Assembly: GCA_037576195.1 (NCBI GenBank)
Contig: CM075104.1
Span: 130,775-194,774 of the forward strand
Direction: 5' to 3'
Length of the DNA stretch: 64,000 nucleotides
DNA from: Phytoseiulus persimilis
Lineage: Eukaryota; Arthropoda; Arachnida; Mesostigmata; Phytoseiidae
Shown: in pieces, positions 19,603 to 53,976 of the stretch
How the letters are laid out: each line of letters begins with the position of its first letter
How positions within the stretch are numbered: the first letter of the stretch is position 1
The notes under the pieces: model-generated
Database searches by the model: none
What the model was told of the DNA's origin: nothing
Seen by the model: only the letters and a program-made list of their open reading frames with translations
Translations under genes and position numbers: made by a program

Positions 19603-20088
19603 CCAGCCGGCCTTTGGCCGACTGGAGTCGGCCGCGCTGCGCGCGGTTGGACGGCACTCCCTGCCATCGAGGAACTTTTCTCTCCCTTCATTGGGTCAGC
19701 ATTCTGATTTTGAAAAATATGGTCAGATTGACCCCGGAATCATCCCTCCGGAGTTGGGAAGTAATGCTCAGATTGGTCTCGGAATCACCCCTCCAGAGTT
19801 GGGAAGTAATGCTCAGATTGGTCTCGGAATCACCCCTCCAGAGTTGGGAAGTAATGCTCAGATTGGTCTCGGAATCACCCCTCAAGAGTTGGGAAGTAAT
19901 GCTCAGATTGGTCTCGGTTTCACTCCTCCAGAGTTGAGAAGTAATGCTCAGATTGGTCTCGGAATCACCCCTCCAGAGTTGGGAAGTAATGCTCAGATTG
20001 GTCTCGGAATCACCCTTCAAGAGTTTGGAAGTAATGCTCAGATTGGTCTCGGAATCACCCCTCCAGAGTTGGGAAGTAATGCGAGGTT
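19603..20088 (-). mobile_element. Helitron-like copy 3 with 45-bp array, inverted
   Basis: On the minus strand: about eight copies of the 45-bp unit (20085-19730), then the conserved module and the hairpin ending CTGG at 19606-19603, again followed by T. It lies between copia-side sequence and a gypsy RT fragment, which separates this family from its neighbours. The 5' end is not recognisable. Confidence 0.6.
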
Positions 20089-20100
20089 GTCGCGACATCG

Positions 20101-20255
20101 ATGGTAGAACTAGGTCGCACGTCATGGGCCGAATTTGACATCAACGAAGCGGCAGGAAGTCAGCCGGTCCGAGCAAAGCCATATCGTTTGGCGGCACCGG
20201 AGAAGGAAGCGCTCGAAGAAATCATCAAGAAGATGACAGCTCGGGAGCTGTCGGC
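20101..20255 (+). pseudogene. Ty3/gypsy RT N-terminal fragment
   Basis: Encodes EFDINEAAGSQPVRAKPYRL then EKEALEEIIKKM, the stretch directly before the RT fingers in Ty3/gypsy pol. The similarity stops at about 20245, and the open frame continues into unrelated sequence to 20421. It may come from the same gypsy family as 13290-14455, but the two pieces do not overlap. Confidence 0.7.
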
Positions 20256-20494
20256 TTGGGTGGACCGAGGTTATCACACAAACAAAGAAAAATGCTCAGA
20301 ACGGGCCTTATATAGTGGAACGATCACATGCACGTTCCCTGCGTACACGCACGTACTGAAAAATGTGTGCCTCACCTGCGAGCATGCGACAAACGTGCAC
20401 CATGTGCTGGTGATGACCTAATTTGAGGAAAGTGGGTGTTGCTGAGATTTGCGCATGCGCAGCGTCAGAGGCTCATGCGCTTCTGAGTGCAAAA
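20256..20494. other. Unassigned stretch before the satellite
   Basis: Contains TTATATAG near 20306 and several GCACGT/GTGCAC-like words but no gene. The satellite begins near 20495 with diverged units. Confidence 0.3.
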
Positions 20495-21710
20495 TAGCCT
20501 GAGCTGCTCGTGGAAATAAGTCTCAGTCTAAGGTGTGCTTGTGGAAATTAGCCTCAGCTTGAGGCCTGCTTCTGAAAATTAGCCTTAGGCTAAGGCATGC
20601 TTCTGGAAATTAGCCTCAGCTTGAGGCCTGCTTCTGAAAATTAGCCTTAGGCTAAGGCATGCTTCTGGAAATTCGCCTCAGGCTAAGGCATGCTTCTGAA
20701 AATTAGCCTTAGCCTTGAGCTAAGGTTGGCTGTTTTTGAAATTTAGTCTTAGCGTCGAGCTGATGTATGCTTGTGGAATTCAGTCTTGAGCTAAGGCATG
20801 CTCCTGAAATTTAGTCTTAGCCTTGAGCTAATGTATGCTCGTGGAATTTAGTCTTAAGCTGAGGCCTGTTTCTGAAATTTAGTCTTAGCGTTGAGCTAAT
20901 GTATGCTTGTGGAATTTAGTCTTGGGCTGAGGCATGCTTCTGAAAATTCGCCCTAGGCCGAGGCATGCTCCTGAAATTTAGTCTTAGCCTTGAGCTAATG
21001 TATGCTCGTGGAATTTAGTCTTAAGCTAAGGCCTGTTTCTGAAATTTAGTCTTAGCGTTGAGCTAATGTATGCTTGTGGAATTTAGTCTTGGGCTGAGGC
21101 ATGCTTCTGAAAATTCGCCCTAGGCCAAGGCATGCTTCTGGAAATTAGCCTTAGCCTTGAGCTAAGGTTGGCTGTTTTTGAAATTTAGTCTTAACGTTGA
21201 GCTGATGTATGCTTGTGGAATTTAGTCTTAGGCTGAGGCATGCTTCTGAAATTTAGTCTTAGCCTTGAGCTAATGTATGCTTGTGGAATTTAGTCTTAGG
21301 CTAAGGCATGCTCCTGAAGATTGGCCTTAGCCTTGAGCCTTGAGCTAAGGTTGGCTTTTGGAATTTAGTCTTAGCCTTGAGCTAATGTATGCTTGTGGAA
21401 TTTAGTCTCAGGCTAAGGCATGCTTCTGAAGATTAGCCTTAGCCTTGAGCTAAGGTATGCTTGTGGAATTTAGCCTTAGCCTTAGTCTAAGGTATGCTCG
21501 CGGAAATTAGCCTCAGCATCAGGCTAAGGTATGCTCGCGGAAATCAGCCTTAGCCGTAGGGGAACCCCTTCTTGTTGAAATTAGCCTTAGCTCAAGGTTT
21601 GCTTGTAGAATTTAGCCTTAGGCTAAGGTATGCTTGTAGAATTTAGCCTTAGCCTTGAGCTAAGATATGCTTTTGAAATTTGGTCCTAGCCTTGAGCTAA
21701 TGTATGCTTG
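20495..21710 (+). repeat. Palindrome-rich satellite, block 1
   Basis: Alternating units of about 31 bp (TGCTTGTGGAATTTAGTCTT + AGGCTAAGGCA) and about 37 bp (TGCTTCTGAAATTTAGTCTT + AGCCTTGAGCTAATGTA). The cores GCCTTAG-G-CTAAGGC and CTTAGC-CTTGA-GCTAAG are inverted repeats, so each unit can form a small hairpin. This block is diverged and is cut at 21710 by an R1-like LINE. Confidence 0.95.
21700..21710 (+). repeat. Target-site duplication, left copy
   Basis: ATGTATGCTTG. The same 11 bases occur at 27848-27858 after the poly(A) of the R1-like LINE, and the satellite unit continues in phase (TGGAATTTAG) after the right copy. Confidence 0.85.
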
Positions 21711-22242
21711 AGAGTTCGCTTCTGACCTTCGTGGACAACGCACGTTTTTTCGTGAGCTCTGCTACTGGTTGCCGTATAGCATCGGGGGTATCGCACAAAG
21801 GTTGGCGGTCGCAAGACAACTACACGGAGCTGCGAACGGGCCGTGTAGGCCGACTTGGAGCGAAGCTACGGTTATTGCTGTGAAATAGTGAGTTTCGTGA
21901 ACGCGCTACCTGGATCTCCTTCAAGCGGATCTTGGCGGCTTGGCGCAGACCAATCCACAACAATCCGCAGGAGACTGGACACGTCACACCGAGAGTAAAT
22001 CAGGCAAGGCAAAATCATCGGATTTTTCCAAATAACCCTGAAGATATTCCAGATCGAAGTTTCCAACACTTTGGTTCGGGAAAGACAGGTTTGGTTCGGC
22101 CTGGGGAGGTTTCCTGCGCGGAAGGGACCTGCGGCTCCTACAGAGGGCCCAGCGGGTAGAGTGGGCAGGCGGGAGTTCACCCAACCCCACAGCCCACGAG
22201 CCAGGCTCAGAGGAATTTGAATTGGTTGGATAAGAGGAGGGT

Positions 22243-24346
22243 ATGGCGGAATCCAAGGTGTCCACGACCGAGCCAGGTATGGAAATTGGAGAGAGCCTCA
22301 ACGATAAGCTGCTGGGTCGCGCGGTGGAGCGGCGGGATGAGGGGATGCTGGCTCCACGGAAGCCGTTTGCTAAGGGGGGGGGGGGGGGCGGTGGCCCACT
22401 CGCCGATGAAGACGGCTGATCTTTTAGGGGATGAAAGGGGTCTGGGGAACGATGGCGAGCCTGAAGTGAGGGCCGCGGTGTCGAGAAAAAGGGGACCCGA
22501 TGGCGTCATTACCCCAGAGAAGGACACGCCTAGGAGAAAAACGGGGGCGGAGGGAACAATCGGTCAGAAAGGCGAAACGAGCCAGGGGTCTATGAGACAG
22601 GGTGGGAAATCGAGGCAAGATAATGAGGCTGCCCAGGAAACGGCGAGCCAGGGGGCTGGACAGTTGAGGGGCAGCGACGATGCCCAGCTGGAGCACGAGA
22701 TGACCCTCATGAGGAGATACATGGAGAAACTAACGAGGCTGAGCAGTGCCCAGAATACTAAAGTGGATTTTAAAGACCTGGGTAAGGTCATGCCCTCACT
22801 TTACGGTAGGCTAGAAGCCAGTTTCAGGGAGGGTCTGGAGAGGGCGAAGAATGAGGGAGCTGCGGATGCGATTCGGGCGAAGTCCGGGAGAGAGGAGGGG
22901 GAAATATGTTGCGATTGCGGGGAAAAGAGTAGCAGCGACGCGGCGAAAAGCAGGGAGGACGAGGCGAGGGAGTTTGAGGAGAGGATCTCAACGGCGGTGA
23001 CGCCAGAGGCCCGGCTGGGTCTCCTAGACCTTGAATGGCCTGAGGAGTGCTTCCAGCACGTGAGGCGAACTCCGGAGGAAAATTGGGCGAAGAAAAACAT
23101 CAAAATGGTCATCTTCGGGGAGGGGGAAAAGTTGGAGGGAGGAATCTGGAGGGAGATCCGAGCACAGTTTCCCAAGGTGGAGGATTCAAGCGGACTCGCT
23201 GCGGGAAGTGTCGCGGTCCTGAGGAGTTATGACGTAATGGAGGTTGTCGGAGAAGCAGGGTCCAATCGGCCAGGGGGCACCAGAGTGCTCGTTGCCGGGA
23301 TACTCAAGCAGGGGCAATTTGCTGGAGCGGAGACCCTAGGAATGCTGGAAAGGGCGCTGGGGAAGATCCTGGAGGTGGCGGGAAACGGAGGTGAGCAACC
23401 AGACGTCTTTGTAGACCCGGCGTATCGAAACCAGCGGCTACTGAGAGCTCTTGAAGTAGCATATAGGGCCGCAGGGAAGATCCATGGGGTGTCTGGGGCG
23501 CTGGGAGTTTGCTCGAAGGCTGGAGCAACCCTCTCGAGGCCGACGACAGGGAGCGAGCGCTCCCAGAGAGCGACGATAAGAGTAAAGGTTGGAGAAGGCC
23601 GAACCTTCAGGGAGGCTCTGCAGGGGCTCAGAGAGCATTGGGAGCCGGATGCGATGGACTTGAAGATGCGAGGGGTACCGACGAAGGATGGGGAGGGAAA
23701 TCTGATCATGAGACTAGACGAGGCGAGGGCCGGGGCGGGTGCTAGCTTCGCGAAGATGCTCAGAGAGAAGGCGAACCTGGAGGCCGACGTGAGAGTTGGA
23801 AGGAGTGGGCAGACGGTGGCTCTCTGGGGGTTCGACCCACTAGTCCCGCCGACGGAGGCAGAAAGAGCTCTCCGGAGCCTCCTGCAGGTGCCGAACACGG
23901 CTGAGGTCAAGGTGGATGAACCCCGTCTCGTCAGGGCAGAAGTCTGGAGAGCCTTGGTAACGCTACCGGTGGAGCATGCGGAGGCACTGCTGCGCCACAG
24001 GACGATCCGGCTAGGGAATCGCTGGTGCAGGCCCGAGCTTTGGGTGAATGTGCTCGCGTGCTTCAGGTGCCACGTAACAGGCCACAGGGCAAGGGATTGC
24101 AAGGCTGGGGGCGGGGATGGGAAACTTTGCTACAGATGCGGGGGCTTGGAGCATATTGCGAAAGACTGTAAGGGCACCGCAAGGTGCTATGTCTGCAATA
24201 TCGATGGTCATCGGGCCGACAGTAACGCTTGTCCAGCTCGGTTGAAGAAGTTGAGGAAGGTCATTGGGTCGGGAAAACAGGGTAGAAGCGGTGACCCGAA
24301 GGCGGCCGACGAGTGGATCACGGTGGGCAGGCGCCAGAGGAAATGA
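22243..24346 (+). CDS. R1-like LINE ORF1 (gag-like, three CCHC zinc knuckles)
   Basis: Likely starts at ATG 22243 (MAESKVSTTEPGM), whose frame reads naturally to a run of 15 G at 22374-22388. After the run the sensible frame is shifted by one, which a 14-G run would reconcile. The middle contains a helical region (EHEMTLMRRYMEKLTRLSS). The C-terminal third has three zinc knuckles, CFRCHVTGHRARDC, CYRCGGLEHIAKDC and CYVCNIDGHRADSNAC (about 24050-24230). In R1/Jockey elements this protein packages element RNA. A GTG or ATG-less upstream reading in the other frame (from 22217) is an alternative but gives an unnatural N-terminus. Confidence 0.85.
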
Positions 24347-27300
24347 TGGCCGAAGTATGCGTGATTCAGGTGAACCTAAATCGGTGTCGAGGGGCACATG
24401 ACATGCTAGAGAGAGTATGCCATGAGACAGGGGTGAGCATTGCTTTGACGTCAGAGCCGAACCATGCCTCCGTCAGGGGCAGGGCAGACTGGTTCACCGA
24501 CGTACCGTTTGACGCTGCGGGGTGGATCAAGGGGTCACTCAAGCTGAGAGGGAGGGGTCAGGGCAAGGGGTTCATATGGATCGACGTGGAGGCGGTGGGA
24601 GTCTTTTTCTCCTGTTACATCTCGCCGAATGTGGGGCGGGAGGCCTTCGCGGAGTTCTTGCAGGACCTGGGCGACAGTATTGAGGCCAAGAGAGCGGCTA
24701 AGGTTATTGTCACGGGGGACTTCAACGCCAAAAGTGTTGTATGGGGGAACCGGATGACCGACGAGAGAGGGAGGTTCGTGGAGGATTGGGCTGCGTCGCA
24801 CGATCTGACCTTGGTGAACGATGGGAGGGTCCCGACATTCTCAGGGGCCAGGGGGCAGTCATTCATTGACTTGACCATGGTGAACTCGAGGGCGCAGGGG
24901 AGCATTTCGGCATGGGGGGTCTTGACGGACCAGGAGTCGCTCAGCGACCACAGATATATCGCCTTCAGAGTAAGGAGCGAGGCTGGCACAGCGCATGATA
25001 AGCGGGGAGGGAGGTGGGATCCAAAGAGGCTGGACTTCACCAAAATGAGGAAGTACATCGACGAGAGATGCAGGGGCAAAAGGGGAGAGGATATTAGCGC
25101 TGAGGGACTGGAGGGCATTCTTACGGAGGCATGTAGGAAGGGAGGTCCGAAAAGCAGATACATGGGAGGAAAGCAGCCGAACTACTGGTGGAACGAGGAA
25201 GTGGCTGCCTTGCGCCGACAGTGCATTCAACTACAGAGAACCGCCAGCAGGACGGCGAGCTGGGTCGGACGCTCCGACAGGGGGGAAGAGGGAAGGGCTA
25301 CGCACGCGGCGCACATTGCAGTGTATAGGGAGGCTAGGGCGAAACTTAGGGCGGAGATCAAGAAGAGCAAGGATAGAGCTTGGCGGGAACTGATTCGGGA
25401 AGTGCAGAGGGAAGTGTGGGGGAAGCCATATAAGGTGGTCATGGGGAAATTCAAGAAGAAGGCACCGGAGCTAGCACAGGACAAACTGTGGGAAACAATC
25501 CAGGGTCTTTTCCCGGAGCGCCCCGAGAGGAGGAACTGTACGAATGGGAGGAATGATGGGAGAGAGCAAGAAGAGCTGGCTCACGAGATAACACTCGAGG
25601 AGGTAATTCGGGCCGCTGACGGACTTGCAGACGGCAAAGCGCCAGGACCGGACGGAGTTCCTGCGGAGGTGGTCAAACTCCTGGCCAAAAGATGGCCAAA
25701 AATGGTGAAGGAAATGTTCGATGAACTGCTGAGGAGAGGAGTTTTCCCGGGGCCTTGGAAGCGGGCAAAGCTCGTTCTTATACCGAAAACGGGTGGGGGG
25801 CACAGGCCAATCTGTCTGCTGAATACGATGGGGAAACTTTTTGATAAGGTGATTGCGGGGAGGATTCAAGGGGAGATTGAGGAGCTGGGAGCACTGTCGG
25901 GGATGCAGTATGGTTTCAGGAGGGGGCAATCCACAGTCGACGCAGTGGGGTGGGTGCTCAAGAGGGCAGAGCAAGAGAGGAGCAAGAGCTCGAGGAAGAG
26001 AGGGTTTCTTCTAATGGTTCTGCTGGACGTGAAAAACGCCTTCAACTCGTTAGAGTTGGGGGAGATTCTGCAAGCCTTGAGAGAGAGAGGGTTTTCGGGG
26101 TATTTGCAGACGATTATATCAGCATATCTAAATGGCCGGGAAATAGCTACGGAGGGTGGGGCTTACAAAGTCACGGCGGGGGTACCGCAGGGTTCCATTC
26201 TGGGCCCAACTCTGTGGAATCTTGCTTACGATGGTGTTCTGAGAATTGATCTGCCGAGGGGAGCTGAACTGTTAGCGTACGCTGACGACCTAGCACTGAC
26301 TGTGACGGCGAAAACGGAAGGGGAGGTAGAGAGGGTGGGGAATTTGGCCTTGAGGAAAATCCATGAGTGGATGGGGGAAATCAAACTGGAGCTGGCACCG
26401 CAAAAAACAGAAGCATTGTATCTCATCGGGAGGAAAAGGGCCAAGGGAATCAGGCTGAGCTTAGGCGGGATAGACATCAAGCTAGTAGAAAGGGTGAAAT
26501 ATCTAGGGGTTGTGCTGGATCGCGCGCTCACGGGAGGGGAGCATGTGAAATATGTGGCGGCGAGGGCGAGGGAGACGGCACGCAGGCTGGGCATGCTGAT
26601 GCCGAGGGTCGGCGGGGCTGGGGGGTGCAGCGACGGCTGCTGGCGTCAGTTGCGGAATCAGTGGCAATGTACGCGGCCCCGGCTTGGGCCCACCTGGCGC
26701 TCGGGACTCAGGGCAGGCGGAAGGCCGTCCGAGCGGCGCAGAGGACGCTGGCGCTCCGTGCGAGCCGAGCGTATAGCACGGTTTCGACGGAGGCTGCCCT
26801 TGTCCTCGCCAAGATGGTGCCGTGGGACCTCCTGGCGTTAGAGAGAACCAGGTGCTGGGGGCAGGAAGGGGAGGGACGGGAAACAGCCAGGGACGATACC
26901 ATCAGACAATGGCAGAGGGAGTGGGATGCGGGACTGGTCGGAGACTCGAAGGGCAAATGGACGAGGGAATTAATCAGGGATCTCGAGGGGTGGATGGGCT
27001 GCGAGTTCGGGGATTTAAACTACGGGATGACCCAGGTGCTGACGGGGCGTGGGCAGTTCCAGACATTCATGGTGAAAAAAGGGAAAACGGACTTTGATGT
27101 CTGCGTCCTGTGCACGTCCGGTGAGTCCGACGGGGTGGAGCACACCGTTTTGCACTGCGACGCCCTTGGAGACATCAGACGGGAGGGAATTCAAGGTTTT
27201 CAGGGGACTGGCGTGAGGGAGATGGTGGAGTTCGGGCTGAGGGGGAGGGAGGAGTGGAAGGCTGTCGCAAGGTACTTGGAAAGGATAATGATGGGGAAAA

Positions 27301-27488
27301 CAGCGAGGGAGGAAGCAAGGAGGTCGCGGCTCGTCGCGAACTCCGGGACACGTCAGAGGGCAGAAGCGGGGGAAGAGGTCCACTCGCAAGAGAGGGCCTC
27401 TGAGCCCGCGAGAGAGCTGACGGTCTCTCACGAGACAAGTGGAGCAATGGGGATTGGCTTCCTTCGGACGAGTGAGAATAGCGATTAG
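24343..27488 (+). CDS. R1-like LINE ORF2: endonuclease, reverse transcriptase, CCHC
   Basis: ATG 24343 overlaps the ORF1 stop (ATGA). The endonuclease opens with VIQVNLNRCRGAHDML, has VTGDFNAKS and LSDHRYI; all are typical of R1. The RT contains DGKAPGPDGVPAEV, YGFRRGQSTVDAV, LDVKNAFNSL, GVPQGSILGPTLWN and YADDLAL (about 26280). The frame changes in a 6-G run at 26620-26625, after which SVAESVAMYAAPAWAHLA and a CVLCTSGE...HTVLHC zinc motif follow, to the stop at 27488. If the G run is an assembly or read error, ORF2 is intact (about 1,048 codons). It nicks the target and copies the RNA in place. Confidence 0.9.
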
Positions 27489-28054: not shown

Positions 28055-28069
28055 CCTAACCTAACCTAA
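28055..28069 (+). repeat. Short (CCTAA)3 stretch
   Basis: Three exact copies of CCTAA, the complement of the TTAGG arthropod telomere repeat, just outside the satellite. Too short to be more than suggestive. Confidence 0.6.
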
Positions 28070-28350
28070 AGTGAGTGATGAAACGTAAAAGCCTCACTGG
28101 GGACAATTTTGGTGTATCAGGGCAACCATCTCCAAAGCAGCAACGCCTTTGATTATTTGATCTTAAGTATTTCACCACTTTACTCAGTTTAAGCACTGAT
28201 TTTTATGGATACATCCTCCCCTTCAGAACTAAAGAATTCTTACATCGCGTCCAGAGTTACTAGCTATCATTTTGATTAGTTGATAGATACGATCAGATGT
28301 GATTCACGTAAAAATGTGGATTAGGGCTTTATTTTATTCATGACGTTCTA

Positions 28351-28982
28351 TTAAAAACTATGAGATTGGGAAGAGTCAGAATCAGAACAAATTTCAATGA
28401 TTTCTCCGACTCTTTTCGAACAACCTTGTTGATAGGAAGTGCTTCTCATCCTCTTTGTTCGACTTCCAACTCCACTCGAAGTACTAGGGGTCGGCTCATT
28501 TCTCCCTCTCTTCCGACTTTTATGTCCTGCGTCCCGTGTCAATTCATTTGCTTCGCTTTGAGTTGTATTAGAATTGGGCGTTGATGCCCTAATGAGCGGT
28601 GGTGAATCGGATACTCGTTGACGTATCAAGCTAATATCCAGTTTAAGAATGGGATGTAATCGGCTTTCGTACAACTTCGCACGCAACTCGTTCTCAATGT
28701 TATCTAAAGGCGCAGAGATCATGTTCAGATAGTTCTCCACGGTTTTGGTTTTTTCGCTGCTTACATTGCGGATAAGAGACTTATATTTGAGGCATTCAGC
28801 TCGGCGAACGGCGATATCTTCCAGTGTGGTCAATTCTTCTGGTGGGATATCATTGACGAATTCCGCCCAAATCTTATTGAAATCCTCTAGGGAACTGCAG
28901 TAGAAATGAAGCTCGCTTATCGATCACACAAGGGATCAAGTATAACATAGAGCTATAAAATCAGTATGGGCACTTACGTCAT
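28351..28982 (-). CDS. Two-exon nuclear-type protein with a SUMO-interaction-like C-terminus
   Basis: Exon 1 is only ATGAC (28982-28978), followed by a consensus donor (GTAAGT). An 83-bp intron (28895-28977) ends TTTCTACTGCAG, and exon 2 (28894-28351) continues in phase for 182 residues in all. The N-terminal half is acidic/helical (SLEDFNKIWAEFVNDIPPEE). The second half is low-complexity with basic clusters (KSRKRGR, RTKRMR) like nuclear localisation signals. The end, EIIEICSDSDSS, has the hydrophobic-core-plus-acidic/serine form of a SUMO-interacting motif. AATAAA signals overlap near 28328-28339 and a TATA lies at 29045. Not a recognised family. The iteron array lies directly upstream. Confidence 0.6.
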
Positions 28983-29044
28983 TTTTAATGATTTACAGGA
29001 CCTGTTGAATTGATCGACATATCATGAGGCATGTGAACAGCGTC

Positions 29045-29052
29045 ATATATAT
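29045..29052 (-). promoter_or_regulatory. TATA-like element for the two-exon gene
   Basis: ATATATAT, 63 bp upstream of the ATG on the minus strand, between the gene and the iteron array. Confidence 0.4.
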
Positions 29053-29071
29053 GGTTGAAGTCAGGAGAGTA

Positions 29072-29372
29072 TCTTGAGCAACATGATGGTGTACATGTTG
29101 AGCAAAATGATGGTGTACATGTTGAGCAAAATGATGGTGTACATGTTGAGCAACATGATGGTGTACATGTTGAGCAACATGATGGTGTACATGTTGAGCA
29201 ACATGATGGTGTACATGTTGAGCAACATGATGGTGTACATGTTGAGCAACATGATGGTGTACATGTTGAGCAACATGATGGTATACATGTTGAGCAACAT
29301 GATGGTATACATGTTGAGCAACATGATGGTATACATCTTGAGCAACATGATGGTATACATGTTGAGCAACAT
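29072..29372. repeat. 24-bp palindromic iteron array
   Basis: About 12.5 copies of a 24-bp unit (GATGGTGTACATGTTGAGCA + ACAT). Each contains CATGTTG-AG-CAACATG, a 7-bp inverted repeat, and GTGTACAT or GTATACAT. The period is a multiple of three, so all frames on both strands look open (VHVEQHDG and similar); this is not taken as coding. It lies between two divergent genes, and diverged copies recur at 30890-31000 beyond the + strand gene. Such arrays act as origins or enhancers in several DNA viruses and plasmids; that role here is inference. Confidence 0.9.
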
Positions 29373-29443
29373 GAGGGAAACGGAAATGTATGTAGCGAAT
29401 ATTGACTGATGGCTTTCGCAGCGTTTTTGATAGCAGCGTTCGT

Positions 29444-29555
29444 GTAAAGTTGCGAATAGTCGTATTTTTCAACATCAACTATTATTATTCGAACGTGAGG
29501 TAAAGTTGCGAATAGTCGTATTTTTCAACATCAACTATTATTATTCGAGCGTGAG
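29444..29555 (+). repeat. Two-copy 56-bp direct repeat
   Basis: Two near-identical 56-bp units (29444-29499 and 29500-29555, one difference), each running from GTAAAGTTGCGAATAGTCGT to CGTGAG and followed by GTAA. The CGTGAG|GTAA joins look like splice donors, so these may be duplicated first-exon ends for the + strand gene. Confidence 0.85.
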
Positions 29556-29695
29556 GTAATGCACAGGGGATTAAATTGTGAGGGACAATATCGATACTAT
29601 AATAGCTGTACTGAGATTGTCTTTATATTTGGGTAAATTTCAATTTCTTTCCCTTATCAGTCATGGCTGCGTCATCATTATTCGCCAAAAAATGA

Positions 29696-30529
29696 TCAGT
29701 CACGTTGGAGTCGGAATTCATCGATGGTGCAGAGAAGACAAGAGCGCGAAGGGGAATACTGGATGCGTTGAAGTCGACGCATGCAATTCAGAAATTTCGT
29801 TTGATTTATGAAGACGCTAAGAAGACGCGCGACAACGTCACCATCTGTTCCCGAGCAACTGCACATTTTCACGCTCTTGTATGGTTCGAAAGGCCGGCGA
29901 ATGGCCAGACATTTTTCACTGATCTATTCAAACCCCGATTTGTGACAGCCACAGGTATCAGGCAGCCTGAAAAATGGGAATCATTCTTCGATACATCCAA
30001 TGACGAGGCTGCGAATACCTCTTATACGAATGATAACGATGGACCAGTTTTCGACGACCATCGAGGACGTTTGAGTCCAGAAATTCCTCTACGTGAACCA
30101 GCTTGGAACAGTACTCCAATACGATCCAGCCCTGCTCCATGCAAACGGGAAATTTCACGCTGTTTCCGCGAAAGTATTCAGGCCAAATACCGAAAGATCA
30201 GTCATAAAATCGGACCCGTGATCGTAGCTTTCTCAAAAGATGTTCAGCGGAGCATTCTGTTACATAGCATTGCGTCGAGCTCTAATGCGTGCGATGCCTT
30301 TTGTTCTATAAGTCGCATAGACATTCAAGTTGCTGCGAGTTCGTTCCAAACATGGTACCCTTTCCCAGTGTGGTTCTATGAGAATCATAAAGCTAGTGAT
30401 ATTGTAAAAGTTCTCAGAAATCACGAATTTCCAATGGAAGCAGATAGCAAGTGGTCGATCACTAATATTGCTGATATTTTGAGTTTAGATGGCGAAAATG
30501 ATACAGTCGAACCTACAGGTTCGGGCTGA
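29696..30529 (+). CDS. Unrecognised protein of the iteron island (N-terminal ORF)
   Basis: A 270-plus-codon frame that looks like real protein throughout but lacks an ATG at its start. An ATG at 29663, behind a strong acceptor (TTTCTTTCCCTTATCAG at 29645-29661), is in the same frame but meets TGA at 29693-29695. The segment ATAHFHALVWFERP resembles the H-x-H motif of HUH nucleases, but no matching Tyr motif or helicase was found, so this is weak. Later parts (SSFQTWYPFPVWFYENH, DSKWSITNIADILSL) are unrecognised. The frame ends at 30529, where a second frame with a Cys-rich end takes over. Possibly a decayed or spliced gene of a DNA element or virus-like insert. Confidence 0.45.
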   Translation, partial: SVTLESEFIDGAEKTRARRGILDALKSTHAIQKFRLIYEDAKKTRDNVTICSRATAHFHALVWFERPANGQTFFTDLFKPRFVTATGIRQPEKWESFFDTSNDEAANTSYTNDNDGPVFDDHRGRLSPEIPLREPAWNSTPIRSSPAPCKREISRCFRESIQAKYRKISHKIGPVIVAFSKDVQRSILLHSIASSSNACDAFCSISRIDIQVAASSFQTWYPFPVWFYENHKASDIVKVLRNHEFPMEADSKWSITNIADILSLDGENDTVEPTGSG

Positions 30530-30783
30530 GGTTCTACGTAGTAAATAGTCAGGATGTCTCACGGATCGAGTATTCGTGCCCTGCGTGCCCTGTCCGACGC
30601 AAATATTTCAAAGATAGTGTTAATCGTAAGAACGATGTGAAATTAGCACTAAGGGCGTGTGCAATGCATTGGACAAAGGTGCACGAAACCACACTGGGCA
30701 CAGCGCATACTGCAGGACCTAAATTTACGTTCAAGGAGTTCGTCAACCATGTGGAATCTATATATCAACTTCGAACCATGTAA
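30501..30783 (+). CDS. Continuation ORF with Cys/His residues and overlapping poly(A) signal
   Basis: Open frame shifted by one from the preceding ORF, with natural composition: FYVVNSQDVSRIEY, then CPAC, and later RACAMHWTKVH, which could form a zinc site. It ends ATGTAATAAAC, so the TAA stop overlaps AATAAA (30782-30787). The overlap of 29 bases with the previous frame suggests a 1-base frameshift or an unrecognised intron between two parts of one gene. No family recognised. Confidence 0.45.
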
Positions 30784-30889
30784 TAAACAGTCATTATTCG
30801 CTTACCGTTAATTGAGTTCATGATTCATGTGGAGCATGCAAATATCCTGCTAATCAGGTTGGGGCGTCCCGACGCTTGGTGTGATAGCT

Positions 30890-31000
30890 GGCGGTGGAAA
30901 CGCTGAGCAACAAGGTGGTGTACATGTTGATCAACATGGAGGTGAACATGCTGATCAAAATGCTAGACAACATGATGTTGAAAGTGATGAGCAACATGTT
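30890..31000 (+). repeat. Degenerate copies of the 24-bp iteron
   Basis: GGTGGTGTACATGTTGATCA, then variants with GAACATGCTGATCA and GAGCAACATG. About four diverged copies of the 29.1-kb unit, on the other side of the + strand gene. Confidence 0.75.
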
Positions 31001-31339
31001 CAGGCAGCGCGACCACTTAATCACATGACGCGCTGCACCTCGCTACGCTCGGTGGAGGTCTTAGACGTAATGTGTGTTCTTTGGTTCGAGAAAGACGAAT
31101 GATGTATGTACAGTGAGGAAGGAGGGGTATTCATGGGGGAAATGGTAGTATTGAGAACAAAGCATGATGATGGCATGAATTATATTTATAATGAGACAAA
31201 TCGGATGGATGATGAGGAATGGCTGCTGATGATGATGATGATGAGGACTCCGGCGACGTGTGATTGATTATTACATGGTTTTTCGAGAGCTATCACTGAT
31301 GGAATGGGCGAGTTTTGAGATTTTGAAGCAGGGAGAATA

Positions 31340-32167
31340 TCATGGATGGGTGTTGACACGGTTTCGACTTGAAGAATTAGATGCGGCTGGAGGTAATTGA
31401 GCTGCGAATGATGATGATTGCGCGGCAGAATTACGAAGGTTGAGAGGAGGTCGGAAACCAGAACGTGTATGTAGTGTGCTGCTTGTGGACGAGGTGTTCG
31501 GAGTATACTGTGGTGAATTGAATGAAGGAATGGAGTTTGATCCTGAGCTATTTGATGAATATAGTACGATTTGTAACGCCTGTGCTAATATATCTGTACT
31601 TGTGTGACGTGTTGCTGATTGCGGATGCGACGGAACATGTACGGGCTGAGGGACTTGTTGTGTTTGTGGTTGTTCTTGTTGTGATTGTGGATGGTCGTGT
31701 GTCCAGATAGAATTGTTGATTTGATGTGAGCGCATCAATTGCTCAATGTGTGTGGGCCCGCGTGTGTATAGTGAATGAAGATATGAGCTCCAATTTGCTG
31801 CGTTGGTAATATATGTGTTAAAGTGATGTGTTTCGAGTGTTACCAGACAGGAATCCAACGATGGGCTAATTGATATAGCGCATGGAAGAATTTCGCTGTC
31901 ATGTGTTAATCTATGTGTGTTTGAAGTGCTTGTTCCCTGTTCCCCCTGATTATGTTCGTGTTGTGCTTCTTGTTGCTGCGGTTGTTGCTGTTGTTGTTCT
32001 TCATTCTGTTGTGTGTTGCTGTGTTCTTGCTCAGGTGCGTGTTGTGTTTGCCTGGACGCACTGTTTGGCTCGATGGCTTTTAGATGGAATGATAATTTGC
32101 CCAGATCGCGCATTATGTCGTCCGGGTCCTCGGTAGATGAATGTGATGATGATGATAAATGAGCCAT
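31340..32167 (-). CDS. Gln/Ser-rich low-complexity protein, 275 aa
   Basis: The ATG at 32167 has a favourable context (ATCATGGCTC); the frame is also open upstream to 32305 but that part is AT-rich. The sequence has a poly-Gln segment (EEQQQQQPQQQEAQ), Gln-Pro repeats (QSQQEQPQTQQVPQP) and long Ser/Asn-rich stretches, with a more structured part in the middle (LETHHFNTYITNAANWSSYL). No signal peptide, membrane segment or enzymatic motif. It converges on the + strand gene of the iteron island and abuts the satellite at its 5' side. It could be a transcription-related or structural protein; unrecognised. Confidence 0.5.
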   Translation of the reverse strand: MAHLSSSSHSSTEDPDDIMRDLGKLSFHLKAIEPNSASRQTQHAPEQEHSNTQQNEEQQQQQPQQQEAQHEHNQGEQGTSTSNTHRLTHDSEILPCAISISPSLDSCLVTLETHHFNTYITNAANWSSYLHSLYTRGPTHIEQLMRSHQINNSIWTHDHPQSQQEQPQTQQVPQPVHVPSHPQSATRHTSTDILAQALQIVLYSSNSSGSNSIPSFNSPQYTPNTSSTSSTLHTRSGFRPPLNLRNSAAQSSSFAAQLPPAASNSSSRNRVNTHP

Positions 32168-32324
32168 GATAACGATGATGGTGGTGGTGTCGGCGATGAA
32201 TGTAATATGAGCTGAGATGAACTTGATTGATGAGTGATGTTTGATAATGAAATAATATGATGAATTAAGATCTAAATGACGATCTGTGAAAAAAGTATTT
32301 TTCAAACACAGGCTTCTGAATATT

Positions 32325-34164
32325 CTTCGTTAAGCTAAGGCATGCTTCTGAAATTTAGTCTTAGCGTTGAGCTAATGTATGCTTGTGGAATTCAGTCTTA
32401 GGCTAAGGCATGCTTCTGAAAATTCGCCTCAGGCTAAGGCCTGCTTCTGAAAATCAGCCTTAGCCTTGAGCTAAGGTTGGCTGTTTTTGAAATTTAGTCT
32501 TAGCGTTGAGCTAATGTATGCTTGTGGAATTCAGTCTTGGGCTAAGGCATGCTTCTGAAATTTAGTCTTAGCCTTGAGCTAATGTATGCTTGTGAAATTT
32601 AGTCTTAGGCTAAGGCATGCTTCTGAAAATTAGCCTCAGCCTTGAGCTGAGGTGGGCTGTTTTCGAAATTTAGTCTTAGCGTTGAGCTAATGTATGCTTG
32701 TGGAATTCAGTCTTGGGCTGAGCCATGCTTCAGAAAATTCGCGTTAGGCTAAGGCATGCTTTTGAAATTTAGTCTTAGCCTTGAGCTGATGTAGGCTTGT
32801 GGAATTTAGTCTTGAGCTAAGGCATGCTTCTGAAATTCTGTCTTGGCGTTGAGCTAACGTATGCTTGTGGAATTCAGTCTTGGGCTAAATCATGCTTCTG
32901 AAATTCAGTCTAAGCGTTGAGCTAATGTATGCTTGTGGAATTCAGTCTTAGGCTAAGGCATGCTTCTGAAAATTCGCCTTAGCCTTGAGCTAAGGTTGGC
33001 TGTTTTTGAAATTTAGACATAGCCATGAGCTAATGTATGCTTCTGAAAATTCTTCTTAGGCTAAGGCATGCTTCTGAAAATTAGCCTTAGCCTTGAGCTA
33101 AGTTTGGCTGTTTTTGAAATTTAGTGTAAGCGTTGAGCTAATGTATGCTTGTGGAATTTAGTCTTAGGCAAAGGCATGCTTCTGAAATGTAGTCTTAGCC
33201 TTGAGCTAATGTATGCTTGTGGAATTTAGTCTTAGGCTAAGGCATGCTTCCGAAAATTCGTCTTAGCCTTGAGCTAAGGTTGGCTGTTCTTGAAATTTAG
33301 TCTTAGCGTTGAGCTAATTTATGTTTTTGCAATTTAGTCTTAGGCTAAGGCATGCTTCTGGAATTCAGTCTTAGCCTTGAGCTAATGTATGCTTTTGGAA
33401 TTTAGTCTTAGGCTAATGCATGCTTCTGAAAATTCGCCTTAGCCTTGAGCTAAGGTTGGCTGTTTTTGAAATTTAGTCATAGCCTTGAGCTAATGTATGC
33501 TTCTGAAAATTCTTCTTAGGCTAAGGCATGATTTTGAAAATTAGCCTTAGGCTAACCATGCTTCTGAAAATTCGTCTTAGCCTTGAGCTAAGGTTAGCTG
33601 TTTTTGAAATTTAGTCTTACCGTTGAGTTAATGTATGCTTGTGGAATTTAGTCTTAAGCTAAGGCATGCTTCTGAAATTTAGTCTTAGCGTTGAGCTAAT
33701 GTATGCTTGTGGAATTTAGTCTTAGGCTGAGGCATGCTTCTGAAAATTCGCCTTAGGCCAAGGCATGCTTCTGAAAATTAGCCTTGGCCTTGAGCTAAGG
33801 TTGGCTGTTTTTGAAATTTAGTCTTAGCGTTGAGCTAATGTATGCTTGTGGAATTCAGTCTTGGGCTAAGGCATGCTTCTGAAATTTAGTCTTAGCCTTG
33901 AGCTAATGTATGCTTGTGGAATTTAGTCTTAGGCTAAGGCATGCTCCTGAAAATTAGCCTCAGCCTTGAGCTGAGGTGGGCTGTTTTCGAAATTTAGTCT
34001 TAGCGTTGAGCTAATGTATGCTTGTGGAATTCAGTCTTGGGCTGAGCCATGCTTCTGAAAATTCGCGTTAGGCTAAGGCATGCTTTTGAAATTTAGTCTT
34101 AGCCTTGAGCTGATGTAGGCTTGTGGAATTTAGTCTTAAGCTAAGGCATGCTTCTGAAATTGCT
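32325..34164 (+). repeat. Palindrome-rich satellite, block 2
   Basis: 31/37-bp units as in block 1, less diverged. From about 32708 it belongs to the first 7.8-kb duplicated unit. Minus-strand genes of the iteron island end just before it. Confidence 0.95.
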
Positions 34165-47028: not shown

Positions 47029-47170
47029 NNNNNNNNNNNNNNNNNNNNNNNNNNNNNNNNNNNNNNNNNNNNNNNNNNNNNNNNNNNNNNNNNNNNNNNN
47101 NNNNNNNNNNNNNNNNNNNNNNNNNNNNNNNNNNNNNNNNNNNNNNNNNNNNNNNNNNNNNNNNNNNNNN
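47029..47170. other. Assembly gap (142 N)
   Basis: Sequence on the left is the 3' UTR of LINE copy 4, on the right is unique sequence. The satellite that follows every other LINE copy and, if the copia element is complete, a 331-bp LTR should both lie here, so the gap is probably longer than 142 bases. Confidence 0.98.
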
Positions 47171-49072: not shown

Positions 49073-49624
49073 TTATTCTGAAGGGGGAGACTGCTGTCGC
49101 TCGATCCCGCTCCCGGAGGCTTCGTCAATGCTTTGGACGGTTGTTCTGTACGGCATGGTCGGATCGTCTACTATAGAAGTGTCTACTGGCTCGTAAGACA
49201 AACGAGCTCTGAACTTTAGTAGTTTGAGCATCACAATTCCCGAAAGCGTACTGAGTGACACTACCCCTTGAATGGCGGATAGGTACTTCCAGAAATTGCA
49301 GTTCGGTGTTTGTGGAATTGGTGGACATGGCTTAACAGTCGGCTTTGGTGGCAGAGTTCGATTGCGATACTCGGGCCACAGTCTGAGTCCTCCAGAGGTT
49401 GGAGAAGACTCTTTGATACAGGGAGCGTATTCGGTGGTGTGTAGTTCACACAATGCTAATGGTGTACAAAATGATGAGAATCTACCAGAATCCAGTTTAA
49501 CTAACATACATGGAGAGTTTCGTGTTATGCATTTGGCGTCGCAGTCTGAGTAGCTAAAATATTGGTTAGAGGGGATTATGAATATTGTTACTGCTACGAA
49601 TACCTGCTGCGTTACTGACGCCAT
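49073..49624 (-). CDS. Env-like transmembrane ORF overlapping the copia pol stop
   Basis: ATG at 49624 lies inside the last codons of copia pol: ATGGCGTCAGTAA contains the start in one frame and the pol TAA (49612-49614) in another, a 13-base overlap. The 183-residue product has an N-terminal hydrophobic signal (QVFVAVTIFII) and an ectodomain of about 90 residues with nine or so Cys and an N-glycosylation site (NRT). A hydrophobic stretch near residues 118-140 (LSAIQGVVSLSTLSGIVML) is followed by a ~40-residue Ser/Pro tail. This is the layout of a short type I envelope-like protein. No furin site or fusion peptide was identified, so any entry function is inference. It could also be the first exon of a longer protein. 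Confidence 0.65.
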   Translation of the reverse strand: MASVTQQVFVAVTIFIIPSNQYFSYSDCDAKCITRNSPCMLVKLDSGRFSSFCTPLALCELHTTEYAPCIKESSPTSGGLRLWPEYRNRTLPPKPTVKPCPPIPQTPNCNFWKYLSAIQGVVSLSTLSGIVMLKLLKFRARLSYEPVDTSIVDDPTMPYRTTVQSIDEASGSGIERQQSPPSE

Positions 49625-52600
49625 CTCTCAAGTCCTGACAGTTCTCTCTGATTGAGGAATACTGACTTTACACAGGGCTTGGTTAAGTAGTCCGCTCTTT
49701 GATTGGCGCTTCCAACGTGCTCGATCCCAATTTCTTGATTCGAGTAGAGCTGTCGAATGTAATGAAATCTGAGTTCCATATGCTTAGCTCTACGATAGTG
49801 TCTGGCATTCTTGAGCAATTGAATGGCTGACATCGAATCTATCTGGATGATCGGCTTTTCTGGGATACCCAATTCTCCCAGAAGGTTGCGAAGCCAGAGC
49901 GCTGACTTGATGCATTCTGTAGATGCCACGAACTCTGATTCCATGGAGGAAAGCGAAATGTTCGCTTGTTTTGTGGAGCTCCAAATAATTGGGCCCCCCT
50001 GTTTGAGTATCAGACATCCTGAAGTAGACTTGCGATCCTCACTGGATCCAGCGAAGTCTGAATCGCTGAAGTACAGCGTGCCTTGAGTGTCATCACTTCT
50101 GTACGTGATGCCCAGATCTGAGGTTGTCTTCAAGTATCTCAGGACTCTCAAGCCAGCCTGGAAATGCTGAGGAGTTGATTTGTCCATATATCTTGATAGG
50201 TAGGAAGTGACAAAAGAAATGTCAACTCTCGTACCGCAAGCCAAATATAGGAGAGCTCCTATCAGAGAACGATATTCGGTATTAGAGCACGGACCGTTGG
50301 TCTCGATAGAGTATATCGAATTATCACATGGGGTGACTGCTCCTTTCGAATCTGACATACCGAATCTCTGTACCAACTCGTCCACGAATTTCTTTTGATG
50401 AATGTGGACCGAGAAGTCGCTGCCTCTTTCGATCTGAAGACCTAGAAAGTATCTAAGACCAGAAGTAGTGATTTCGAATTCTTTCCTGAGGGAAGTTATG
50501 AATTCCTCCGCCTGTCTTTCAGTCTTCGTTGCAAGTATGGCATCATCGACCCATATGCACAAGAGCATGCGATTTTCTCCATTCTTGAAGAAGATACAGC
50601 TGTCAGTTTTGCTCTGTTGTAGTCCTCTGGACAGAAGGATCTTCGTTAGCTTATCAAAGAAATTTCGGCTTGACTGCTTGAGGCCATATATGCTTCTCAG
50701 TAGTTTCAATACCTTGTTGGCCTGTACTCCTCTTACGCCTTCAGGCACCTCAAGATAGAGGTCTTCCCCGAGTTCTGCTTGAAGAAAAGCTGCGCGTACA
50801 TCAAACTGATTTAGGAAAAGTTTTTCCTGCGCTGCTAGACTGAGGATCGTTCTGATTCCTTCAGCTCGGGATACGGGGCTGTATATTTTGTCTGCGAAGA
50901 AGTCTATTTCTTTCTTCTGCGAATATCCCTCCGCAGCTACTCGAGCCTTGTAACGTCCTGTGCCATCTGGGTTAGCTTTGTACTTGAATACCCATTTGGA
51001 GCCAATGGCCTTACGTCCAGGTGGTAGTGTTGCGGGAGTCCACACCTTCATGTCAGCCATTGCCTGAAGTTCTTCTTCAACGGCCTTCGTCCAGTGGACG
51101 CGATCGGGGCTTGCCATTGCTTCTTGATAAGTCATTGGCGTTTGGCTTTTCGGCTGAACGGTGTCGGTTGCTGCCCTTTCTTTTTTCGATATCCCACTAA
51201 GATGGTTGAGGTCAGCCATCTGCAGTCTTTCCGTACGTTTCTCGTTCGCCTTGGGATTAATGCGTACGAAACCTTCTTCGTCGCTTTCGTAACCGCTTGA
51301 GGCGCTTTCGTACATGGGTGCTGCTGGCTTTGGTGATTTTATTCTTGAACCTGTGACCTCCGTATCGTGATTGGCTTCTTTCGCAATGTGCGCTGCTTCC
51401 GCAGTATTTTCCGAAGCACTTGTTTTTCCACTTGCCTTGGTTCTGCCAGAACCTTGCCTTTTAGTGGAAGCGATCTTCGCGAATGTTACATCCTTCGATC
51501 GCATGATAATTCGTTTCTCTGGGATGTAGACACGAAATCCAAGATCGTAGTCTAGATACCCAACGAATATCCCCGCGATTCCGCGGTCATCCAGCTTCCC
51601 ATTTGGGTTCTTATTGTGTACGTAGCACGGTGTGCCAAATGCGTACATTCTGCTGGTGAATGGCTTTCGCCTGTATATCATCCCGAAAGGCGACTGTAGA
51701 GTCTTTTCATTTATCAGTACTTGGTTCAAAACTTGAACACAGAAAAGGATCGCCTGGTCCCAAAGGAACTTCTTATTTTCGAGGCCTGCTCCGATCAACA
51801 CTGATCGAGCTAGATTCACGAGAGTTCTGTTTCCTCTCTCTGCTTTTCCTGTCAAACGGGGTTGTCCTGGAGGGGCGAACGTTTGTTCTGCTCCGATCCT
51901 TTCCAGGATCTTCTTAACCTTTTGGTTTCTGAACTCCGTTCCGTTGTCACTGTGCAACCTCTGAATGTTTTCGCCAACTACGTTTCTGAACCATTTTACG
52001 TAGGAGGCAACGTATCGGTAAGTGTCGCTCTTTTTCTGGAGAAATTCGACCTTTCGATAGCTGGTTGCTTCGTCAGTGAATAGAAGGAAATGCTTTGCTT
52101 TTTCTATTGACTCTACATTAGGCGAACAAAGGTCTGCCGTTATGATGCCCGGCTTCTGAGCTTTCGCCTGATCAGGGCGGCTCCTGTACGTGATTCGGGT
52201 GAGCTTCCCCTTCAGACAGGCGTCACATTGGTCTAGATCATCAATGTACTTGATACCCTGCTGGTTCAAATATTTAATCACGTACTGCCTATTAACATGG
52301 GCGAACTTTTCATGCAGGCTTCTAAGGCTCTGCGTCTGTGCACTCATCGTCTTTTCTGAGCCAATGGCGCTCATCACTTGGCTTTCAGACGGAATATCAT
52401 GATTCATGTCGTCAAGATCGCTGTCTGCGTCTTGGTCTACGGATTCTTGATCGCTTGCCTGATCTTGTTGTAATCCGATCTCCGAGTCCATTCTTGATCT
52501 GTAGAGGCCTTCTATCTTGGGACCTCGGATCCTCATATCGTTTCTCGAAATTATGAGGTGATTCCTTTTGAACGTCACTTCGAAATCATCATCTGTCAAT

Positions 52601-53976
52601 TGACTCACAGAGAGGAGATTCTTTCGAACTGAGGGGACAAGTAAAACATTTTTAAGCTCTGAAGCCATTCGCTGCTTAGACTCTCCGACAGTCAGCTCGG
52701 CTGTGCCAGAAGCGGTGACACGCAGTTTCTGGTTGCTTGCTAAGGTGACGGCGCGCATGTCGGTTTGTTGGTCAAAGCTAGTGAACCACTTTCTTGAACT
52801 ACTGCAATGGTGCGACGCGCCGGAATCTACGAGGAACTCATCGGTTTCGCTCGTGTCATACTTGACGTGAGCTAGGAGTGCGACGGCAGTGCTTGCTCGA
52901 GCATGCGATCTGTGCTGTCCGCTTCCTCCTTGATAACCTTGATCTCGCCGAGGGCGGGTACACTGGGACTTGAAATGTCCTGTTGCACCGCAGTTGTAAC
53001 ACTTTACTTGTCTTCTGTTTGGTCTATTGTTCTGGTGGCGTGAACGGTTCTGTTGACCATAGCCACTGCTGCTGGATCCTTGTGAATGATGGCTGGGGGC
53101 ATTTCTTCGATGAGAACGATTTTGGAATCTACGTTTTGGTGCAAACCTGCGACCAACTCTCATCTGAGAAAGCATAGCAGTCGCCTGATCCAATTCCTTG
53201 GATGGTCTTTGGCGAATTGCTTCATTCTTGATTATTTCCATCAGACTGGAGACATCCCTATCGCCTTCTGGTCGGGCTGAGAAAGCCATACGAAGGGGTT
53301 CCCAGCTATGTGGCAGAGCATTGAGCAGTTGTTCAACCTGAACCTTCTGATCGATCTCAATTCCAGAATCCGTGAGTTCGGCTTGAAGATCGCGGAACCT
53401 ATCCAGGTTCTGGTCAGCAGTCTTGCTCTTATTGAACTTGAACTGCATCAATTTCGCGATCGCCGAACCTTGCCGCAGAGCGGCTCGGACTCCAAACTTG
53501 CTTGCGATCTGGGACCAGATATCCGCTGCTCTGACATCCTGAGTTTGTCCGTAAAACATTTGGACAATCAGTTTGTCGTTGATCGAAGAGAACAATTGAA
53601 GTCTTGCTTTTCGATTTGCTCTATCATACCGAACCTTGACTTTCTTTTGATCATCATTAAGCTCGGTAGCTGGTTCGGTTGGGATTGGTTCAACTAGGTC
53701 TCCTTTCACGACTTCCCAAACATCTACGGTTTGTTGTAGGAAGATGGGCATTAAGGATTTCCAACTCAAATAGTTTTGTCCAAACAGACCTAGGGTCACT
53801 GGGCATGGGGCAAGCCTGGTACAGTTCGAGTCGGGTGGACGGGGCTCTGAATCGTCCTTTTTTAGCGCGGCAGGTTCATCTCCCTGCGCAGCCAGATCGT
53901 ATTGGTAGTCGTCGTCTGCAATGGCCCTAGGTAGGTCGCTCCAAGTGGGACCGATGTCAAAAGGAAGTATTTGCAC
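49612..53976 (-). CDS. Ty1/copia gag-pol polyprotein (about 1,454 codons, uninterrupted)
   Basis: Order by residue: gag region (FGQNYLSWKSLMPIF near 85), CCHC knuckle KCYNCGATGHFKSQC (near 325), aspartic protease FLVDSGASHHC (near 385), pre-integrase zinc domain (LHEKFAHVN...CDACLKG), and integrase with ITADLC, RLHSDNGTEF and GKAERGNRTL (about 610-710). RT follows with KWVFKYK, YSPVSR, FDVRAAFLQ and WVDDAIL (near 1,142), then RNase H with FSDSDFAG, SSMESEFVA and KHMELRFHYI (1,300-1,430). RT has WVDD where YVDD is usual. No stop or frameshift in 4.3 kb suggests recent activity. The frame opens with GTG after a TAA and the first ATG lies inside gag; a donor-like GTAAGT just upstream hints at a spliced leader carrying the start. 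Confidence 0.95.
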   Translation of the reverse strand: MQILPFDIGPTWSDLPRAIADDDYQYDLAAQGDEPAALKKDDSEPRPPDSNCTRLAPCPVTLGLFGQNYLSWKSLMPIFLQQTVDVWEVVKGDLVEPIPTEPATELNDDQKKVKVRYDRANRKARLQLFSSINDKLIVQMFYGQTQDVRAADIWSQIASKFGVRAALRQGSAIAKLMQFKFNKSKTADQNLDRFRDLQAELTDSGIEIDQKVQVEQLLNALPHSWEPLRMAFSARPEGDRDVSSLMEIIKNEAIRQRPSKELDQATAMLSQMRVGRRFAPKRRFQNRSHRRNAPSHHSQGSSSSGYGQQNRSRHQNNRPNRRQVKCYNCGATGHFKSQCTRPRRDQGYQGGSGQHRSHARASTAVALLAHVKYDTSETDEFLVDSGASHHCSSSRKWFTSFDQQTDMRAVTLASNQKLRVTASGTAELTVGESKQRMASELKNVLLVPSVRKNLLSVSQLTDDDFEVTFKRNHLIISRNDMRIRGPKIEGLYRSRMDSEIGLQQDQASDQESVDQDADSDLDDMNHDIPSESQVMSAIGSEKTMSAQTQSLRSLHEKFAHVNRQYVIKYLNQQGIKYIDDLDQCDACLKGKLTRITYRSRPDQAKAQKPGIITADLCSPNVESIEKAKHFLLFTDEATSYRKVEFLQKKSDTYRYVASYVKWFRNVVGENIQRLHSDNGTEFRNQKVKKILERIGAEQTFAPPGQPRLTGKAERGNRTLVNLARSVLIGAGLENKKFLWDQAILFCVQVLNQVLINEKTLQSPFGMIYRRKPFTSRMYAFGTPCYVHNKNPNGKLDDRGIAGIFVGYLDYDLGFRVYIPEKRIIMRSKDVTFAKIASTKRQGSGRTKASGKTSASENTAEAAHIAKEANHDTEVTGSRIKSPKPAAPMYESASSGYESDEEGFVRINPKANEKRTERLQMADLNHLSGISKKERAATDTVQPKSQTPMTYQEAMASPDRVHWTKAVEEELQAMADMKVWTPATLPPGRKAIGSKWVFKYKANPDGTGRYKARVAAEGYSQKKEIDFFADKIYSPVSRAEGIRTILSLAAQEKLFLNQFDVRAAFLQAELGEDLYLEVPEGVRGVQANKVLKLLRSIYGLKQSSRNFFDKLTKILLSRGLQQSKTDSCIFFKNGENRMLLCIWVDDAILATKTERQAEEFITSLRKEFEITTSGLRYFLGLQIERGSDFSVHIHQKKFVDELVQRFGMSDSKGAVTPCDNSIYSIETNGPCSNTEYRSLIGALLYLACGTRVDISFVTSYLSRYMDKSTPQHFQAGLRVLRYLKTTSDLGITYRSDDTQGTLYFSDSDFAGSSEDRKSTSGCLILKQGGPIIWSSTKQANISLSSMESEFVASTECIKSALWLRNLLGELGIPEKPIIQIDSMSAIQLLKNARHYRRAKHMELRFHYIRQLYSNQEIGIEHVGSANQRADYLTKPCVKSVFLNQRELSGLERWRQ

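Follow-up and report, generated by a model that had tools for sequence, protein, structure and literature searches.

The window analysed here, a 64,000-nt stretch of the Phytoseiulus persimilis genome (C4:130775-194774), carries between blocks of satellite DNA an island of unique sequence, with genes and arrays of 24-bp palindromic repeats (iterons). The feature is genuine and unusual, and the copy in the window is broken. We give about an even chance to its being the decayed relic of an undescribed mobile-element-like replicon, with a Rep-like origin binder devoid of the catalytic tyrosine, iterons and perhaps a RecQ helicase. All genome searches reported below were made in the 181-Mb, 127-contig assembly. 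The features on which the argument rests are the following (positions of the window; TRF, Tandem Repeats Finder):

28073-32331, island: non-satellite unique DNA between satellite blocks, pieces of which recur at other loci
28328-28338, − strand, two overlapping AATAAA signals close behind the stop of gene A (AATAAA at 13-18 nt from it), read from the sequence
28351-28982, − strand, gene A: exons 28982-28978 and 28894-28351, 182 amino acids
29074-29374, iteron array 1, between the divergent genes A and B: 12.5 copies of the 24-bp unit TTGAGCAACATGATGGTGTACATG, 98% match by TRF
29444-29559, 56-bp direct duplication upstream of gene B: 2.1 copies, 98%, by TRF
29663-30529, + strand, gene B: putative Rep/origin-binding-like N-terminal domain and conserved C-terminal region; broken
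30502-30783, + strand, open reading frame (ORF) with a CPxC...H-x4-H zinc-finger-like pattern; an AATAAA overlaps its stop
30902-31010, iteron array 2, diverged: 30902-30958 by TRF (2.4 copies, 81%), the remainder to 31010 by eye
31340-32167, − strand, gene C: paralogue of B, Gln-rich, open, with the N-terminal domain deleted in frame
20234-20510, − strand, second relic: promoter-like end of gene C (TATATAA) and a palindrome, entering satellite at 20511

A preliminary description of this DNA had placed here an island of about 4 kb between satellite blocks, a two-exon gene on the − strand, a 24-bp palindromic array at a divergent promoter with diverged copies beyond the + strand gene, and AATAAA signals near or overlapping stops; all of these are borne out, the island with its limits corrected to those given above, the two-exon gene as gene A, and the arrays by TRF and by genome searches whose controls gave no match. 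Both members of the ORF pair that it had seen on the + strand were located, B being stopped at codon 11 and the second ORF having separate relatives, and its Gln-rich gene on the − strand is gene C, Gln-rich as stated and open, but missing its promoter and about 100 residues.

A predicted Rep-like domain in a family of paralogues

Genes B and C form a family with two further paralogues, D and E, and in the structural check for a Rep fold that the preliminary description had proposed, the best reading of the N-terminal domain of this family, from models of gene B of L021 and of D, is an HUH replication-initiator-like core topology without the catalytic tyrosine. Paralogue D (L058:955-2010, C1:47.49 Mb) reads as one uninterrupted frame of 352 codons and could be a host-domesticated member of the family. 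The model of its domain (predicted local distance difference test, pLDDT, 80.8; predicted template modelling score, pTM, 0.73) has its elements in β-α-β-β-α-β order, and a structure search with it (VIA) returned HUH Reps or origin-binding domains (OBDs) at ranks 1-15. In BFVD, several CRESS Reps were among the weak matches. DNA-binding domains of the EBNA1/LANA/E2 type share a similar strand order; none was seen among the 50 best PDB rows of each structure search, and the BFVD list held one LANA record, at rank 47. The motif II histidine pair (H-x-H) lies on the third core strand of the models (strand E66-74 in B and E71-78 in D), and reads HFH or HWH in seven of the eight rows of alignment A4 and PFH in the remaining one, L025; L023, left out of that alignment, reads FFH. 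The motif I position, for which a portion of PMC6668415 defines the consensus UUTU in HUH Reps, holds SVTL in B, NMTL in D and RIII or QIII in C, and the motif III position holds W-x-x-H in D, E and C and W-x-x-F in B of the window, with R replacing the W in B of locus L021 (C3:23.50 Mb).

Sequence searches were also made with these proteins. In Pfam, no family passed the cut-off with A, B, C, D or the pieces of E, and no superfamily 3 (SF3) helicase was matched by B, C, D or the E pieces; NCBIfam, applied to B and D only, gave nothing above cut-off either (best for D, sigma70-ECF at E 0.009). PHROGs had no match for A, B and C at E 0.1 and one for D, at E 0.014, to a family of unknown function, and a PDB sequence search had none for B or the B+C profile and, with gene A, a best match at only E 0.74. 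A match of D to PDB 9ikc ('62 kDa protein') at E 0.02 was taken as chance, because H-x-H is not kept in the alignment and profiles A2 and A3 missed that entry. Among 5.8 billion protein clusters no relative was found for B (963 candidates), for the B+C alignment A2 (1116) or for D (690), a null result that is weak evidence, the animal coverage of that database being uncertain.

In gene B of the window, codon 11 is an in-frame stop (29693-29695); the copy in L021 stays open over 352 codons from stop to stop, so the window gene is broken. The two copies share 68% amino acid identity and differ at 24% of their bases, with nonsynonymous (dN) and synonymous (dS) rates of 0.19 and 0.85; the resulting dN/dS of 0.23 (276 codons) argues for constraint at the protein level, and selection probably acted on the product of gene B. 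In gene C the in-frame loss of about 100 residues, judged against L024, L025 and L026, has its junction near 32077, where L025 holds 302 extra bp coding for the N-terminal domain. Everything upstream of 32331 is also missing from gene C of the window, including the TATATAA promoter and a likely 5' intron (by eye). Its dN/dS values (1.9 against L025, over 90 codons, and 0.78 against L024, from a gapped alignment) are both unreliable.

Iterons and copies elsewhere in the genome

The iteron unit is built on a 16-bp palindrome, CATGTTG-AG-CAACATG, nine copies of which lie in array 1 and a single one in array 2 (at 30923). A 36-mer (1.5 units) searched with up to three mismatches has 15 matches in the genome, 12 in the window island and three in the C3:23.50 Mb copy, against none for the reversed-pattern control, which places the result above chance. 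For a 17-mer core with up to one mismatch there are 27 matches (reversed control, none), of which 13 lie in the window island, 10 in L021, one in L023, one at C3:23.886 Mb, some 2.2 kb away from a relic of gene C, and two elsewhere. The gene-bearing stretches read number six (the window island, L021, the overlapping L022 and L023, L024, L025 and L026), and those without arrays are truncated or internally deleted. No iterons were found at the D locus (3.4 kb read) or the E locus (2.5 kb read). The consensus of array 1 differs between the window and L021 at one of 24 positions, against 24% of bases in gene B. Iterons track the copies of the element, with 24 of the 27 core matches in the genome.

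A genome search with the island DNA had 22 matches, namely the window itself, 19 pieces on C3, which fall in five regions (23.50, 23.89-23.90, 30.38, 32.19 and 34.23 Mb), and two short ones (<65 bp) at C1:11.08 Mb and C3:31.01 Mb, within the Gln-rich stretch of gene C. Protein searches returned at least two match rows for B, at least three for A and at least 10 for C (pieces and the distant D included). The window island is one of several diverged, mostly truncated copies. The preliminary description had called for a search for further copies with the same gene order, and further copies exist, some of them holding genes and iterons together: A, iterons and B follow one another in this order at C3:23.50 Mb, as do iterons and C at C3:23.90 Mb.

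The flanking satellite, of the GCTAAGGCATGCTTCTGAAATTTAG type, stops near 28038 and resumes at 32333. The left limit of the island, 28073, is common to the window and L025, which have different outer flanks (satellite in the window and, by eye, copia-like DNA in L025), and the right limit, 32331, is the point where the window copy ceases to match L024, L025 and L026. Neither inverted terminal repeats nor target duplications were noticed at the island copies. A (CCTAA)3 run, CCTAACCTAACCTAA, is placed at 28055, between satellite and island; its use as a pointer to a TTAGG telomere was dropped, (TTAGG)5 having no exact match in the assembly. The second relic of the window is 91% identical to positions 4100-4420 of L025, and the succession of promoter, palindrome TTGCGCATGCGCA and satellite is common to the window at 20.2 kb, L024, L025 and L026, with a shorter spacer in L026. 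Either the satellite is part of the element or this junction was copied along by segmental duplication, and we have no preference between the two.

RecQ-type helicase fragments

A fragment with RecQ-family motifs lies in L021, 3' of the second iteron array and on the same strand as gene B. It matches TIGR00614 at E 3.5e-15, as does a fragment in L045 at E 2e-18, both below the full-length score cut-off, and the PDB matches of the L045 fragment are WRN, RecQ and BLM. On these matches, the identity as a superfamily 2 (SF2) motor of RecQ type holds for the fragments, which are located outside the window. Further helicase fragments lie at C3:23.315, C3:23.319, C1:15.88 and C3:34.10 Mb, and C1:53.82 Mb resembles an ordinary host RecQ (by eye). 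Just 3' of the piece at C1:15.88 Mb, and with the same orientation, comes a CPxC...H-x4-H module related to the ORF at 30502-30783; what the window holds may therefore be a scrap of the tail of the helicase unit, or of a gene beside it. That ORF has relatives at four other places, this module among them, a set different from that of gene B. The idea that the helicase tail (L070, L071) shares the C-terminal region of B, D and E was dropped (shuffle z −0.9 to 0.4). At L021:3501-4197 there are 23 units of 24 bp (with 12-bp sub-units) and 3.2 more, with a frame open into the helicase fragment; this array may be coding or regulatory.

Gene A

The coding part of exon 1 of gene A is 5 nt (ATGAC) and exon 2 is 544 nt, with the stop at 28351; the 83-nt intron-like stretch between them runs GTAAGT...CTGCAG, its splicing being deduced from sequence alone; L021 has the GTAAGT donor too, together with an AG acceptor. 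The protein has basic stretches (SRKRGRN and SRTKRMR) and a C-terminal IIEICSDSD that we take to resemble a SUMO-interacting motif. Its copy in L021 has 79% amino acid identity and is about 20 codons shorter at the end, and that in L025 has 86% and is without the first 51 residues of the searched frame. Between the window and L021 dN/dS is 0.53 (170 codons), a weaker constraint than on gene B. Since dS for gene A is only 0.19 at these two loci, against 0.85 for gene B, the copies look mosaic.

Other features of the window

A 45-bp tandem repeat (GGGGTGATTCCGAGACCAATCTGAGCATTAC...) occupies 6-1753 and 19719-20082, and recurs beside several copies of the element (L021, L023, L069). A LINE-like element at 22160-27488 has a zinc-knuckle-like ORF (by eye) followed by endonuclease and reverse transcriptase (PF14529, PF00078), its frame being broken near 26841. 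The pairs 34186-35505/41999-43318 and 35640-37956/43458-45774 look like a segmental duplication in tandem, offset by about 7.8 kb, and hold reverse-transcriptase-like ORFs and satellite. An open frame of 1454 codons at 49612-53976 presumably resembles a Copia polyprotein, and 47029-47170 is a run of N, perhaps a gap. Outside the window, a DDE_Tnp_4 transposase occupies L022:2275-4473 as an open frame of 733 codons; it has a weak match to the SWIM zinc finger and inverted end sequences on either side.

Discussion

Several observations weigh against reading the island as the relic of a replicon, or at least leave room for doubt. The window copy is defective and, because B is stopped early and C is without its domain and promoter, it is itself incapable of a replication function; moreover, no single copy with both full ends was found, and iteron arrays are present in three of the six gene-bearing stretches. 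No conserved tyrosine of motif III (YxxK) follows strand 4 in the family. The strand order of the D domain is also that of other ferredoxin-like folds, D tying with ribosomal S6, and the search with the B model was not specific, ribosomal-subunit chains, polyketide cyclases and SIRV1 ORF119 (rank 4 in the Foldseek search with the whole model, a rudivirus Rep) being on top. Pfam recognised no capsid, polymerase or transposase in the island, and IMG/VR viral contigs held no relative of A, B, D or the helicase, in a scan that left out gene C and in which only close relatives are detectable. The intron-like splice signals in A and C, the TATA-type promoter of C, and the recurrence of its junction with satellite, as segmental duplication would produce, would suit a rapidly evolving family of host genes (B, C, D and E), duplicated with its promoter repeats into satellite-rich DNA and immobile there. 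That D, on C1, is uninterrupted over its 352 codons and has no iterons in the 3.4 kb read, and that the copies read are few, mostly in C3 and beside repeats, speaks for such a family as well; however, the cassette is compact, the iterons track the genes, the left end is common in differing flanks, a RecQ-family helicase adjoins one copy and the predicted fold is Rep-like, so that we hold this explanation to be rather unlikely.

Descent from a small DNA virus that had integrated, and whose origin-binding protein derived from a Rep, is in our judgement unlikely; it would agree with the compact genes, the divergent promoter with iterons, the putative Rep/OBD-like domain and the CRESS Reps among the weak BFVD matches, but neither Pfam nor PHROGs recognised a capsid or an SF3 helicase, the IMG/VR scan was negative within the scope stated, and A and C carry intron-like splice signals. 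Of the two natures envisaged in the preliminary description, the integrated DNA virus is therefore not demonstrated and the self-replicating element is plausible. Very unlikely, too, is that the genes are the cargo or the accessory genes of some DDE DNA transposon with a RecQ helicase, like the fungal KolobokH. RecQ helicases do accompany Kolobok in fungi and one rhodophyte, according to a portion of PMC9587614, and the DDE_Tnp_4 transposase of L022 is separated from a relic of gene C by about 0.5 kb, but this transposase is bracketed by inverted ends of its own and resembles an insertion, and among the island genes of the window no transposase was recognised and no terminal inverted repeats were noticed. 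Highly improbable, in our view, is that the 24-bp repeats are a coding tandem repeat rather than binding sites: 24 and 12 are multiples of three, so no stop closes the frames across the arrays, and in L021 the frame continues into the helicase fragment, but the variable positions of the L021 array alter amino acids in the helicase frame (by eye), array 1 lies between divergent genes with its palindrome kept, and the unit consensus is nearly constant between two copies whose gene B is far more diverged.

If the island is the relic of a replicon, B and C would bind the palindromic iterons through their N-terminal domain, acting as a non-nicking OBD, and would recruit a RecQ-type helicase, supplied as a separate protein for unwinding, and host polymerases to copy the element; they could also regulate the divergent A/B promoter that holds the iterons. 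Gene A might act in the nucleus, given its basic stretches and what we take to be a possible SUMO-interacting motif. A bolder form of the proposal, which we regard as doubtful, is that of a new type of animal mobile replicon, combining tyrosine-less HUH-fold paralogues, iterons at a divergent promoter and a separate RecQ helicase, physically coupled, through the junction common to four loci, to the flanking satellite, whose arrays replication of the element could have built.

Among known systems, Helitrons are, like the replicon proposed here, eukaryotic mobile elements with an HUH Rep and a helicase. Theirs is a single RepHel protein with a catalytic tyrosine and a Pif1-type helicase, whereas here the proteins are separate, the helicase is of RecQ type and there are iterons; Pfam recognised no RepHel of this kind (HUH, Tyr and Pif1) in the cassette. 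A further likeness is the hairpin near the 3' end of Helitrons (PMC4778049, in part). KolobokH shares a RecQ helicase within a eukaryotic mobile element (PMC9587614, in part), but it has a DDE transposase and is confined to fungi, while the cassette is without a recognised transposase. The HUH Reps of circoviruses and geminiviruses have YxxK as motif III where the B/C/D/E family has W-x-x-H/F, and differ further from the family, which is without a recognised fused SF3 helicase and shows intron-like splice signals and a paralogous pair per unit. Loss of catalysis with the Rep fold kept is known from polyomaviruses and papillomaviruses, where the OBDs of large T and E1 have lost all three motifs (PMC6668415, in part); here H-x-H is kept and no SF3 helicase is recognised in the family. 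RepB of pMV158 differs in having a catalytic Tyr99 and in belonging to a bacterial plasmid. No published description of an element with RecQ and HUH, or of such a cassette in arthropods, was among the matches listed.

The open paralogue D and the intact gene B of C3 make the idea directly testable. If true, it would mean a second, independent route from a nicking Rep to an origin binder and an extra type of mobile element for animal genomes, and it could explain the origin of some satellite-rich regions.

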